Positions 59,012 through 64,000 of a DNA stretch of 64,000 bases are shown here, in pieces (position 1 is the first letter of the stretch; each line of letters begins with the position of its first letter). The DNA is taken from contig JAJTXY010000006.1 of NCBI GenBank assembly GCA_021463865.1, positions 124,001 to 188,000 on the forward strand, written 5' to 3'. The stretch is from Anaerolineae bacterium. GTDB lineage: Bacteria; Chloroflexota; Anaerolineae; Aggregatilineales; J027. A program made the position numbers and the translations under genes. The notes under the pieces are model-generated. The model was not told the DNA's origin. It worked only from the letters and a program-made list of their open reading frames with translations, and did no database searches.

Positions 59012-59314
59012 ATGAACGACCAACCACTGGATGCTGAGTTTGCCCAAAACGCCGTTCGCTGGCAGGCGTGGTTGCAAAAACATGGCCTTGAGGGATTGGC
59101 GGACGCCTTATTAGGGGCAAGTGAACCCCTTGCGCCAATTGGGGCACAATTGCTCTATGTGGCACAACCTGCGCTCAGTTTGATAGCGCCGCGCGAAGCC
59201 ATTGGTCGTTGGGCCAGATTACTCGAAACACCGGGGGGACTGGCGTGGCTGCGTGAACAATTAATTCCCGGTGATGCGTTGACTATGAGAGCAGAAGATT
59301 CCGATGGCGAATGA
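59012..59314 (+). CDS. Small hypothetical protein
   Basis: MNDQPLDAEFAQNAVRWQAWLQKHGLEGLADALLGASEPLAPIGAQLLYVAQP; overlaps next gene by 11 nt; start trimmed from 58952. Confidence 0.8.
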   Translation: MNDQPLDAEFAQNAVRWQAWLQKHGLEGLADALLGASEPLAPIGAQLLYVAQPALSLIAPREAIGRWARLLETPGGLAWLREQLIPGDALTMRAEDSDGE

Positions 59315-60053
59315 AAATACCTATTTCTGGCTCATCATTACCCTCGCATTTGTGATGACCGTTTTAAGTGGGACGATTTCGAGTCGCCGCCGCCGATTAC
59401 CCACGCTGCGCCCTATTCCCGGCTATGAAGCGATGCCCCGGGCGGTGGACGAATCTATTGAAAGTGATCGCCGCCTCCATCTCTCGCCGGGTTCAGCCGC
59501 AGTGGGTCAAACGAGTACCATTACGGCCATTGCCGCGACCAGCATTATCTATGCCCTGACCGAACGCCAATCTTTTCTCAACCGCAGCCCATTGGTAACG
59601 CTGACTGATCCTGTCACAATGGCAATGACCAACGATCTTCTGCGTAAGGCATATATGGCACGCGAAAATCTGACCGCCTATCGCAGTCGTGTCGTATCGT
59701 GGTTTCCGCAAGGGCAAAATTCGGTGGCGTTTGGGGCTGGGGCGGCGATTCGGGCAAAAAGCATGGATACGTCCAGTCATATCATGGTGGGCGAATTTGG
59801 CCCCGAATTAGCATTTATAGGCGAGGTGAGTATGCGCTTTCGGCAAAATTTTGTTGCGGCAAGTACCAATCTCGAAGGCCAAGCCATCGCCTATGTTCAA
59901 TCGGATGCCCCCCTTATTGGTGAGGAAATCTTTGTCGGTAGCGCCTATCTTGAGCCACAAAGCACCACATTTGCCGGAGGCGTCGTTGCGTTGGATGCGC
60001 TCCGTTGGGCTATTATAATTGCCATCATTATCGCGGCTATCGTGAACGCCTAA
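59304..60053 (+). CDS. Two-TM membrane protein, DUF6754-like
   Basis: N-terminal TM WLIITLAFVMTVLSG, GSAAVGQTSTITAIAATSIIYALTERQSFLNRSPLVTLTDPVTM, C-terminal TM. Confidence 0.85.
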   Translation: MANENTYFWLIITLAFVMTVLSGTISSRRRRLPTLRPIPGYEAMPRAVDESIESDRRLHLSPGSAAVGQTSTITAIAATSIIYALTERQSFLNRSPLVTLTDPVTMAMTNDLLRKAYMARENLTAYRSRVVSWFPQGQNSVAFGAGAAIRAKSMDTSSHIMVGEFGPELAFIGEVSMRFRQNFVAASTNLEGQAIAYVQSDAPLIGEEIFVGSAYLEPQSTTFAGGVVALDALRWAIIIAIIIAAIVNA

Positions 60054-60069: not shown

Positions 60070-60750
60070 GTGCAGGCTGATCGCAAAACACGAAGACGAC
60101 GGCGTTTGAAATTAGGAAATGCGGTGAATGCCACGCTGGTCTTGGCGCTGGGATTTACCACGATGGTTGGATTGATCTCGCCTGCCGATTCGACGGTGGG
60201 TGTGACTGCCGACATCTTTTTGCAATTGGCAGGGGTGTTGGCGGCGGTTGCGGTGCTGGTGGGGGTGTCGAATCTGCTGTTTGTACATCTAGGCCGTCTG
60301 CCCCGTGTGCGAAAAGGTGGTTTTTACAGCCTTGTGGTGATTCTTTCGGCGGCGGCGGTCACGGCGGTGCATGTGCTTGACCGTACCGACGCATGGGGTG
60401 GTGATTTGGAGGGTGAAAAAGTTGGCCCGCGCTTGTTTGGCGTAATACAGGTCACACTAGAATCGGCCCTTGCCGGGTTAGTGTTCTTTTTCCTTGTTTA
60501 TGCCGCTTATCGGTTGATGCGCCATCGTGTGACATGGGCCAATTTGGTGTTTCTCGCCGCTGTACTGATTGTGCTGGTTGGCTGGCTACCCCTCAAGGAT
60601 TGGGAAGGCGCAGGCGATGTGCGGGATTGGTTGATGGAAATTCCGGTTACAGCGGGGTCACGTGGCCTGCTGATCGGGATCGGGCTAGGAACCGTGACCG
60701 TTGGTGTGCGTGTTTTACTAGGTCGGGAGCGAGCGTACCGTGAGCCATAA
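60070..60750 (+). CDS. Multi-pass membrane protein
   Basis: Several hydrophobic segments (ATLVLALGFTTMVGLI, LAGVLAAVAVLVGVSNLLFV, SALAGLVFFFLVYAAYRLM); GTG start, 16 nt after previous stop. Confidence 0.82.
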   Translation: MQADRKTRRRRRLKLGNAVNATLVLALGFTTMVGLISPADSTVGVTADIFLQLAGVLAAVAVLVGVSNLLFVHLGRLPRVRKGGFYSLVVILSAAAVTAVHVLDRTDAWGGDLEGEKVGPRLFGVIQVTLESALAGLVFFFLVYAAYRLMRHRVTWANLVFLAAVLIVLVGWLPLKDWEGAGDVRDWLMEIPVTAGSRGLLIGIGLGTVTVGVRVLLGRERAYREP

Positions 60751-60786: not shown

Positions 60787-63700
60787 ATGAACGACGACCA
60801 AAACTTTAATTTTGATGACATGCTAGAGCCAAACTTTGATACGGGTTGGCTCGATAGCAACAAGCTGCCTCCGCAGGATGAGGACAAAACCACCCTGCCG
60901 GATTGGTTAAGTTCTGCTCCATTATTGGAAGATGAACCGCAATCATCTACCAAAACGCCCTCGGGGACTTCCGTACCTGATTGGCTAAGTCAGACAGAAT
61001 CGGATGATTTTGGCAGCACCTTTGTAGAAGAACCTGCCCAACGTGGCCCCCTTTCGACTGATGCTCTGCCAGATTGGTTATCCAGTAGCGAGGCGTCGGA
61101 AGAACCCAGTTTCGATTTTGAAGAACCACCCCTGTTGATTGATGAAGAGCCTGAAATTGAAGAGAAGCCCGCATCCTCATTGGGGTTAAAGCGGCTGAGT
61201 CAGACCACCCCGGCGGTGCAACCACCTGAACAACCTGCTGCTCCACGTCCCGCATCTAGGCCACCGGAGCCGCCGCCACCTCCCCAACCCCAGATTCGCA
61301 AATTGGGGCAAAAACGCGAATCTCAATCTATTTCACCGGATGAGATGACGTTTGAGGAGTGGGAACGCCAACAGCATCAAAAGGAATATGAGCAGGTACA
61401 TGCCGAAGATATTGCCATGACCGAGGCTGTGCCGGATTGGTTTGTGGATAATGTCGAAATCGGGACTGCCGACAAAGATATTGCTTCTTTGGTGCTGGAT
61501 TTGGAAGAAGAGGAAGCACCCTATATTCCTGAAGTACCCCCACCCACCACTACCGGGTCGTTGACCAACTACGTACCCGATTGGTTTATGGGGTTGGAGG
61601 AACAAAATCTTGAGAACGCACCGGAATGGGCACGGACGGTTGGGACAGATGACCTGAGTTTCGAAACGCTGGTGGACGCCTCGGCTTTTGCGCCGCCCGA
61701 ACCCGAACCTCAGCCCGAACTACCCACCGCCCCGACCTTTGATGATGATGTGCCCGATTGGTTCAAAGGGGTTGCTACTCCCTCTGCTGAGGCAGGCGGG
61801 GCAGATGATTGGATGTCGGCACTCGATTCGGCGTTGGCAGCCTCGGCAGAAGCACAAATGCCAACCACGAGCCAAGATGAAACCGATCTTGCCGCTAATA
61901 TGACATTCGAGCAACCAGATTGGTTTGAACCGTCTGCCGAAACATCCCCGGATGTTATGCAGACTTTTATGGAAACTCCCGCACCAACAGATTTCGAGCC
62001 GAGTTTTGGTCAACCCGATTGGTTTCCAATTGAGCAATCGTCAGAAGCAATGCAGACGTTTGTTGAAACACCCGATCAGGAAGAGGGTTTTGAACCGAGT
62101 TTCGATGAACCCGATTGGATGGCGGATGTAGCCCCACTTGGAACGCCGGAAACCGAGCACGCCGTGCCTGTCGAAGATTTGTTTGCTGCCGAGCCTGCCC
62201 CCGAAGAAGACTTTTTTGCCACGATGATGGGGGCTGAGTCCGATTTGTTTGGGGAAGGTGGTGCTGCGACTAATCTGTTTGCACAACCTGCGGTTGAGGA
62301 TGATAGCCCTGATTGGCTACGTGAATATGAGGCCCCCGACGAACTCCCCGTCCTACAAGTGCCAGAAGAGCCGACAGTCCTGCTGCCGCGTGAGCAAGAA
62401 ACTGCCCCGGAATGGTTAGGGGATATTTCAGGGGTAGATTTTGCGGGCGCGGATGATTTATTTGGGGACGTTCCCGGCAGCAAGCCCCCAACTTTTAGCG
62501 ACCAAGACCTAAAAGCGGTTTCCAGCGGCACGAGCATTGATGACCTGTTGGGTCTGTCCAAAGAATCCAATCTACCAGTAGTTGCAGGGCCAAAGGGTCT
62601 TGTTCCAGTGCGCGGCAAGACGCCTACTGAAGAAGTCATGACCAGTGATCTTTTTGAGGGCATTGATGATGAACTGCTCAAGGCACTGGATGATGCCTCT
62701 CCCAAAGCACCCCCCAAGTCTACGACGTCTGAATCTGAAGCCGTCAAAGAAGCGGTTGTCGCGGATCGCCCCGAGTGGATTGCGGATTTGCGGCCTGATG
62801 TCCCGGTCACGCTAAGTGCGGGTGGAATTAGTATCGCATTTGAGCAGCAACGTATCAGTGATTTGCCAGACGACCTGCGACGGCTACGTGAGAAATCCGT
62901 TGATGTATTGAAGACCGAAGCAGGGACTTCAGCGCAAATCTCCGACAGTGGCCCATTAGCAGGGGTAACAGGTGGGCTGGGGATTGCTCCCCAAGCAACC
63001 GCTCTCGGTGAGCTAAATATGGTGACCCAATTGAGTGTCACGGATTATCAAGCCGAACGGGTTGCGCTGTTGGAAGGCATTTTGGAACTGACCGAACAGC
63101 GGCGGCGAGCACTGGGCTTGGATGAAGACGAAGAACTGGAAGTCGCAGCGGCAGCACCATCGAAGAAACGCAAACGCACTCGCCCACATTTTGACCGTTT
63201 CTTGATTTCGATTATTTTGCTGGCGGCGCTGATTGGCCCATTTTTGAGTGATGCCCTCCATGTGGCTGAAGAAGCTGACAGCAGCGGATTTACGGTGCGC
63301 CAGTCTGCGGTGCCGAAGGCAGTGAATAGTATTCAACCGGGTCAATATGTCTTGATGGCGTTTGAATATGGCCCAACCGCAACGGGTGAATTAAATCCAC
63401 TAGCTGAGGCTGTGCTGCGCGATATTCTAAGCCATCGCGGGATACCGATTATTCTCAGCACCAATCCACTTGGAGCGATTAATGCACGCGGTGTAGTGGA
63501 AGCCCTCGCCGATGATCCGGCCCTGCTGGATGCTGTCGAGCGCGATGAGCCATTGGAAACCCGCGAAGACTATTTTGTTTTGCGTTACGTCTCGGGCGGA
63601 GCGATTGGGATTCGCGGGCTGACACGTAATGAGCAGGTCGGGGCGACGATTTTTGCCACTGACGCCGAGGGCGAAAAGACGGGTCTGGAATTTGATACGC

Positions 63701-64000
63701 TCGACGCCACTGACTTCGCGTTGGTGGTTGTGATTGGCGAACGGGCGGATGATATTCGTAACTGGGCCGAACAATTTGATGTGCCGGGACTGCCCAAATA
63801 TGCCTTGATGACCGCCGGGGCCGAACCACTGGCAACGGCCTATGTTAATGGTACGGGCTATCAGGGGTATCTAGCGGGGTATCGGGACACTTATCGGTAC
63901 AATCAACTTCGCAATACCCGAACTCGTGAGGCGTTTGAAACCCCGGAGGATATAGATATTCCCGACCCCGAAATTTCACAATGGCATAGCATGGCGCTGG
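60787..64000 (+). CDS. Large acidic single-TM protein with 13 P[DE]W motifs (3' end outside window)
   Basis: Own translation from ATG 60787: MNDDQNFNFDDMLEPNFDTGWLDSNKLPPQDEDKTTLPDWLSSAP...; no in-frame stop seen to 64000; TM FLISIILLAALIGPFL near 63199-63258; absent from ORF track because unterminated. Confidence 0.88.
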   Translation, partial: MNDDQNFNFDDMLEPNFDTGWLDSNKLPPQDEDKTTLPDWLSSAPLLEDEPQSSTKTPSGTSVPDWLSQTESDDFGSTFVEEPAQRGPLSTDALPDWLSSSEASEEPSFDFEEPPLLIDEEPEIEEKPASSLGLKRLSQTTPAVQPPEQPAAPRPASRPPEPPPPPQPQIRKLGQKRESQSISPDEMTFEEWERQQHQKEYEQVHAEDIAMTEAVPDWFVDNVEIGTADKDIASLVLDLEEEEAPYIPEVPPPTTTGSLTNYVPDWFMGLEEQNLENAPEWARTVGTDDLSFETLVDASAFAPPEPEPQPELPTAPTFDDDVPDWFKGVATPSAEAGGADDWMSALDSALAASAEAQMPTTSQDETDLAANMTFEQPDWFEPSAETSPDVMQTFMETPAPTDFEPSFGQPDWFPIEQSSEAMQTFVETPDQEEGFEPSFDEPDWMADVAPLGTPETEHAVPVEDLFAAEPAPEEDFFATMMGAESDLFGEGGAATNLFAQPAVEDDSPDWLREYEAPDELPVLQVPEEPTVLLPREQETAPEWLGDISGVDFAGADDLFGDVPGSKPPTFSDQDLKAVSSGTSIDDLLGLSKESNLPVVAGPKGLVPVRGKTPTEEVMTSDLFEGIDDELLKALDDASPKAPPKSTTSESEAVKEAVVADRPEWIADLRPDVPVTLSAGGISIAFEQQRISDLPDDLRRLREKSVDVLKTEAGTSAQISDSGPLAGVTGGLGIAPQATALGELNMVTQLSVTDYQAERVALLEGILELTEQRRRALGLDEDEELEVAAAAPSKKRKRTRPHFDRFLISIILLAALIGPFLSDALHVAEEADSSGFTVRQSAVPKAVNSIQPGQYVLMAFEYGPTATGELNPLAEAVLRDILSHRGIPIILSTNPLGAINARGVVEALADDPALLDAVERDEPLETREDYFVLRYVSGGAIGIRGLTRNEQVGATIFATDAEGEKTGLEFDTLDATDFALVVVIGERADDIRNWAEQFDVPGLPKYALMTAGAEPLATAYVNGTGYQGYLAGYRDTYRYNQLRNTRTREAFETPEDIDIPDPEISQWHSMAL
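61915..62121 (+). repeat. Degenerate tandem repeat (~32-33 aa period) around P-D-W motifs
   Basis: QPDWFEPSAETSPDVMQTFMETPAPTDFEPSFG / QPDWFPIEQSSEAMQTFVETPDQEEGFEPSFD / EPDWM. Confidence 0.7.

Follow-up and report, generated by a model that had tools for sequence, protein, structure and literature searches.

What is the function of a long, predicted cytosolic tail that carries 13 copies of one short tryptophan motif? This question is raised by the end of the window, a 64,000-nucleotide stretch of a contig from an Anaerolineae bacterium, where a large open frame runs across the edge. The cell biology of the phylum, Chloroflexota, is poorly studied (PMC7332563), and the frame, termed gene 4 here, encodes a protein with no family match in Pfam, NCBIfam or PADLOC.

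Gene 4 encodes a conserved protein with two predicted TM helices

An earlier note, made from the sequence of the window, had described an open frame from an ATG at 60787 to the window end, and this frame was found to be unbroken. Extension along the contig placed the end of the stop codon at window coordinate 64080, 80 bases past the window, such that gene 4 (60787..64000, + strand, continuing to 64080) has a total product of 1,097 amino acids when the assembly sequence beyond the window is included. Hydropathy and the positive-inside rule predicted a cytosolic tail of about 800 residues (residues 1 to 800, 60787..63186, + strand), a TM helix (residues ~805 to 823, 63199..63255, + strand), an extracytoplasmic alpha/beta domain (residues ~825 to 1067, 63259..63987, + strand), a second TM helix (residues ~1068 to 1089) and a C-terminal RRRRR sequence located just beyond the window edge. 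The inside-positive KKRKRTR stretch that ends the tail precedes the first TM helix, as described previously, but the description of a single TM has to be corrected to two. The presence of a TM helix on both sides of the domain and of a mostly basic C-terminal tail was recurrent among 41 order-level homologues, and homologues of the C-terminal part were detected in 57 of the 61 genomes searched (own genome counted).

The gene 4 frame had dN/dS values of 0.03 to 0.10 relative to close genus members. In comparisons with three of these, the values were 0.03 to 0.05 for the motif codons, 0.07 to 0.10 for the remaining tail and 0.05 to 0.07 for the C-terminal region, while residue identity to a more distant relative (G001) was 95% for the motifs, 76% for the remaining tail and 87% for the C-terminal region. 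These values exclude a spurious or decaying frame and show that purifying selection acts more strongly on the motif residues than on the remaining tail.

The folded-looking domain proposed in the note corresponded to a confident alpha/beta domain in the AlphaFold model (pLDDT 82.7), and alignments identified conserved ST.P.G and W-x-E-Q sequences within it. No PDB structure matched this domain at an E value of ≤0.001, and a known fold was rejected as neither sequence nor structure comparison gave a convincing PDB match. A paralogous relationship with DUF6754, the product of a neighboring gene, was likewise rejected (hhalign probability, 1%). In three relatives (L059, L062 and L064), the extracytoplasmic part of the array protein contains a bacterial SH3 domain (PF08239), which would be consistent with an extracytoplasmic and possibly wall-facing location.

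The tail carries an array of tryptophan motifs

All 13 of the P[DE]W motifs reported for the tail were present exactly at the positions given, with starts at 60898, 60976, 61069, 61432, 61576, 61621, 61753, 61915, 62014, 62110, 62308, 62407 and 62770, and extend over residues 38 to 664 (60898..62778, + strand). A mean of 0.37 and a maximum of 4 motifs were obtained in 20,000 composition-preserving shuffles of the first 840 residues. The tail was also acidic, as claimed, with a composition of about 21% D+E, 6% K+R and 11% P.

While P[DE]W is thus a repeated motif of this protein, it was too narrow as a description of the full motif, which is broader across relatives; the tails of Chloroflexus- and Herpetosiphon-like genomes contain mainly PAWL or PSWL. 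A W-centred profile of 50 tails had [DE] at −4, [LV] at −3, P at −2 (60%), D at −1 (49%, with E, A or P also occurring), L, F or M at +1 and L or I at +4, giving a general motif of [DE][LV]P[DEA]W[LFM]xx[LI]. A 16-residue example of a motif peptide is AMTEAVPDWFVDNVEI. Every sampled tail of at least 560 amino acids contained 3 to 63 copies of P.W[LFMIVY], well over the shuffled mean, and none was present in the sampled tails of ≤254 amino acids. Copy number turns over, with 63 copies in G194 (period of 14 amino acids) and 49 in its congener, G178; the spacing in G170 was ~23 amino acids.

The best-conserved core of the tail, as judged by invariant alignment columns, lies at residues ~180 to 300 (61324..61686, + strand) and comprises an EEWE helix, VPDWF, VPDWFxGLEEQN and APEW. 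Conservation of the W positions, on which the earlier note had made its interpretation depend, was observed in part: many of these positions were invariant among the nearer families, including those in EEWE, VPDWF, VPDWFxGLEEQ and PEW, but only the class of motif was kept in farther families and the array is altogether lacking from some orthologues.

In AlphaFold models, which rested on 15 to 33 sequences, the tail was predicted to be mostly disordered, with a mean pLDDT of 46.8 and 555 of 798 residues below 50. Short predicted helices began at 8 of the 13 motifs, compared to 1.26 expected from circular shifts, and a predicted helix at residues 189 to 213 had a high pLDDT. The topology, disorder and motif-nucleated helices of this protein are thus predictions that, together with the array, support the earlier suggestion of a cytosolic tail on which a short linear motif is repeated many times, accompanied by an extracytoplasmic domain.

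Gene 4 lies within a conserved Chloroflexota gene cluster

Gene 4 is the fourth gene of a co-directional seven-gene cluster encoding, in order, a small protein, DUF6754, a polytopic protein, the array protein, another polytopic protein, a MutL/GlmL-type ASKHA ATPase and a barrel-sandwich/KOW protein. Gene 1 (59012..59314, + strand; ~100 amino acids, no Pfam match) opened the cluster in 36 of 41 order-level loci and in most loci of other lineages. Gene 2 (59304..60053, + strand) encodes a 249-amino-acid DUF6754 protein (PF20539, E = 1.8e-20) with a TM helix near each end, and its position was conserved in both the order-level and other-lineage loci. The position of gene 3 (60070..60750, + strand), encoding a polytopic membrane protein of 226 amino acids with nothing above the Pfam cut-off, was kept in 40 of 41 loci; some of these 41 loci are cut by contig ends, and the MutL or barrel gene is not adjacent in a few. 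The gene 6 product belongs to PF13941 (E = 8.7e-62; 209.8 bits versus a cut-off of 27) and hence to a family of the ASKHA fold, and scored under every NCBIfam cut-off for GlmL, the methylaspartate mutase accessory protein (NF040745, 107 versus 475 bits; TIGR01319, 64.5 versus 204 bits).

The same gene order was observed in several other Chloroflexota lineages, where the barrel gene was often not adjacent. Defined as genes for PF20539, a polytopic protein, a two-TM protein, a second polytopic protein and MutL in fixed order, the DUF6754 cluster is present in the window's genome. DUF6754 was found in 38 of 151 genomes of the phylum and in none of 14 control genomes, while a collection-wide search with the C-terminal domain detected 38 loci, the titles of which all named Chloroflexota lineages. 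No match in Pfam, NCBIfam, PADLOC, PDB or the literature accounted for the putative complex, and an anti-phage defence system was rejected as an explanation, as none of the eight cluster and TPR proteins compared with PADLOC models had a match.

Several features of individual loci were also recorded. Two acidic single-TM proteins with similar N termini are encoded just downstream of the cluster (L002:9966-12107), and relatives of these genes were downstream in 31 of 41 loci. In G006 (L041/L178), a protein kinase domain (PF00069, E = 7e-27) is fused to the N terminus of the array protein; its catalytic motifs are degenerate, HGG replacing HRD, and it is possibly a pseudokinase. In two Herpetosiphon-like genomes (L131 and L132), MutL carries two P-x-W motifs, which in L132 are located in the C-terminal tail.

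A tree of three neighbor genes contained an array-less outgroup (G143, G081 and G159) with essentially no tail, and within the order the array was missing from at least two distinct parts of the tree (G057 with G042; G050). It was also missing from G165, G075 and G079. The array was rejected as a defining part of the protein, as orthologues with tails of 8 to 254 amino acids have none. The tail was thus lost at least twice in the order and is absent from outgroups, indicating that the putative complex is older and more widespread than the array and that the array is an add-on.

Unlinked TPR proteins carry the same motif

A codon scan of the window's genome for PDW[LF] detected two clusters of matches, one in gene 4 (9 matches) and the other in a second locus (12 matches) unlinked to the gene 4 cluster. 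The second locus (L073:6031-13476, minus strand; G000:C8) encodes a 1,580-amino-acid TPR-then-array protein followed by an 877-amino-acid array-then-TPR protein, with a TPR domain at L073:12700-13476, and relatives have members of both families. The searches for the motif in other parts of the genomes utilized narrow DNA patterns. Among the matches listed for G132, the clusters were again in the operon gene and a TPR gene. In a Herpetosiphon-like genome, a paired-motif pattern matched a cluster only in the operon gene, and a further array was rejected there. The arrays of the TPR proteins had the same W-centred profile as the membrane-protein tails, and a second motif, GVTGxLxW, was common to both in a few lineages.

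Arrays were present on both proteins in 22 sampled genomes having both genes. In G050 and G057, the membrane protein has no array and the TPR protein has 0 to 1 P[DE]W (2 by a looser pattern); in G148, where no DUF6754 was found, the TPR protein has 1. In the Anaerolineae, therefore, arrays on the membrane and TPR proteins tend to co-appear and co-disappear, with partial co-loss. Of the 33 sampled genomes that have DUF6754 and lie outside f22, a family without the array, 32 had a TPR homologue, compared to 0 of 5 within f22; the sample included many fragmented MAGs and some truncated TPR genes. TPR homologues were also present in many genomes without DUF6754, and the TPR protein was, therefore, rejected as a strictly cluster-specific partner. 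The flanks of the motifs were slightly more similar within than between genomes (0.40 versus 0.357; permutation P = 0.001); this effect was weak and may be due to shared ancestry.

Possible functions of the array

We infer that the products of the cluster form a complex and that the motifs are recognized by a partner. The explanation favored here, in which our confidence is evenly balanced, is that the gene 4 tail is a disordered multivalent linear-motif docking platform for a putative partner in an uncharacterised Chloroflexota membrane complex. The gene 4 protein would be a two-TM subunit of a complex with DUF6754, the two polytopic proteins and the MutL-type actin-fold ATPase. Each motif would form a short amphipathic helix, capped by the P and D/E residues and with W and the +1 and +4 residues as a sticky face, that could dock into a groove on a cytosolic protein; through the combined action of numerous weak sites, this partner would then be recruited to or clustered at the complex. 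As the soluble TPR proteins of the Anaerolineae display the same motif, these scaffolds probably have the same partner or belong to the same assembly, and a TPR protein bearing the motifs could cross-link the system.

Docking is favored by the excess of motifs over shuffles, the arrays in all long sampled tails and their common profile, the selection on motif residues, the invariant positions, the predicted disorder and helices, the fixed gene order, the occurrence of the motif on TPR proteins with partial co-loss and the distribution of TPR homologues inside and outside family f22. Counted against it are the dispensability of the array, given that the gene cluster exists without one, the presence of the array on the membrane protein alone in Chloroflexus- and Herpetosiphon-like genomes and in G210, the TPR homologues in genomes lacking DUF6754 and the weak flank similarity within genomes. 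TPR domains can read tryptophan-acidic peptides, as exemplified by kinesin light chain (PMC6214655), and on the basis of co-occurrence the TPR domain would be the first candidate for the motif partner, albeit one we consider unlikely to be correct. MutL and the barrel protein were rejected as readers that track the array, both being encoded in array-less clusters (e.g., L130, L143 and L144).

A different ligand relationship was suggested by cell division proteins. FtsA, an actin homologue, binds the FtsZ C-terminal peptide (PMC5832921), which is helical in some complexes (PMC9939409), and the array motifs, as PxWL helices, could be FtsZ-tail-like ligands for the pocket of FtsA or for a comparable one in the cluster's own MutL-type ASKHA protein. 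Such docking would connect the complex with the divisome or bring copies of the ATPase together. All 20 genomes checked encode FtsA and an FtsZ C-terminal peptide resembling LD[IV]P[APTS]FLR; SepF was not detected in any of the 20 and was rejected as a motif reader. When the W column of the array profile was masked, the FtsZ peptide ranked first in 8 genomes and no lower than 6th of ~400 windows in any of the 20, although these ranks are not independent, since the FtsZ sequences are homologous, and up to 0.75% of unrelated windows reach an equal score. Furthermore, the FtsZ peptide has F where the array has W and is followed by basic rather than acidic residues, so that the array does not conform to [DE]-[IVL]-P-x-F-L-R at a basic C terminus and shares only the masked profile, and both MutL and FtsA also occur in array-less genomes. 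This connection is considered improbable. Two Chloroflexus-like genomes (L276 and L277; G194 and G178, respectively) encode a second, divergent FtsZ with DLPPFLK near the C terminus.

The tail could alternatively function without any reader, the W/L motifs being stickers for homotypic, condensate-like clustering of complexes, with the soluble TPR array proteins as co-condensing clients. An acidic low-complexity chain with regularly spaced aromatic residues (every 14 amino acids in G194 and ~23 in G170) and the sharing of the motif with TPR proteins would fit such clustering, but conservation of P, D/E, L at +1 and L/I at +4 in addition to W, helix nucleation and positionally invariant motifs resemble a specific groove-binding motif, and we regard stickers as fairly unlikely. 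Near-identical tandem repeats in some lineages and complete loss in others could even indicate that the array has no function and arose through tandem duplication within a linker under no constraint. The copies in the window's genus are, however, not near-identical tandem repeats, constraint is higher on the motif residues than on the tail around them, and unlinked TPR proteins carry the motif and co-vary within the Anaerolineae; this possibility is considered very improbable.

A wider scheme can also be envisaged, though we put it forward tentatively and as less likely than not. The cluster would encode a hitherto unrecognized, phylum-specific envelope machine driven or organised by the MutL-type actin-fold ATPase, and the PxW[LF] arrays would be a new bacterial linear-motif code joining this machine to cytosolic TPR scaffolds, and perhaps to the divisome, with copy number tuned by tandem expansion to as many as 63.

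Significance and comparison with known systems

Literature searches on DUF6754, on GlmL in Anaerolineae and on disordered tryptophan motifs in Chloroflexi found nothing. No earlier description of the protein family, the gene cluster or the motif code was found; the principle of a multivalent linear-motif scaffold is itself known from eukaryotes. We know of no conserved bacterial tryptophan array of comparable length. The locus draws attention to a conserved Chloroflexota cluster that encodes an actin-fold ATPase and lacks an assigned role, for which the array is an experimental handle, offering a defined synthetic peptide, a matched W-to-A control and natural array-free orthologues; the Chloroflexus- and Herpetosiphon-like genomes with 43 to 63 motif copies are a further handle.

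Gene 6 shares PF13941 with GlmL/MutL, accessory proteins of adenosylcobalamin mutases, but has membrane proteins as neighbors and no mutase gene among those scanned. In PilMNOP-type pilus assembly, an actin-fold protein is encoded beside membrane subunits with cytosolic N termini. The cluster has the same juxtaposition of genes but differs in gene content, and the scanned cluster proteins had no Pfam match to pilus families. The FtsZ C-terminal peptide and its partner FtsA provide a parallel in the [DE]-hydrophobic-P-x-aromatic-L core on a disordered linker and in the actin-fold protein of the cluster, whereas the array has W instead of F, acidic instead of basic downstream residues and many internal copies instead of one at the C terminus. 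The pairing of kinesin light chain TPR domains with W-acidic peptides is similar in that short disordered peptides have a tryptophan flanked by acidic residues, and a TPR protein occurs in most array-bearing genomes; the array differs in having P at −2, L/F/M at +1 and up to 63 repeats, and TPR binding is only a candidate here. Disordered tails bearing repeats of a helical linear motif are well known from eukaryotic trafficking, where the endocytic adaptors epsin and Eps15 have DPW/DPF arrays on long disordered tails, with many copies of the aromatic motif providing avidity. The gene 4 protein has no sequence relationship to these adaptors, uses another motif and is a membrane-integral bacterial protein with an extracytoplasmic domain, but resembles them in displaying many copies of one aromatic motif on a long disordered tail.
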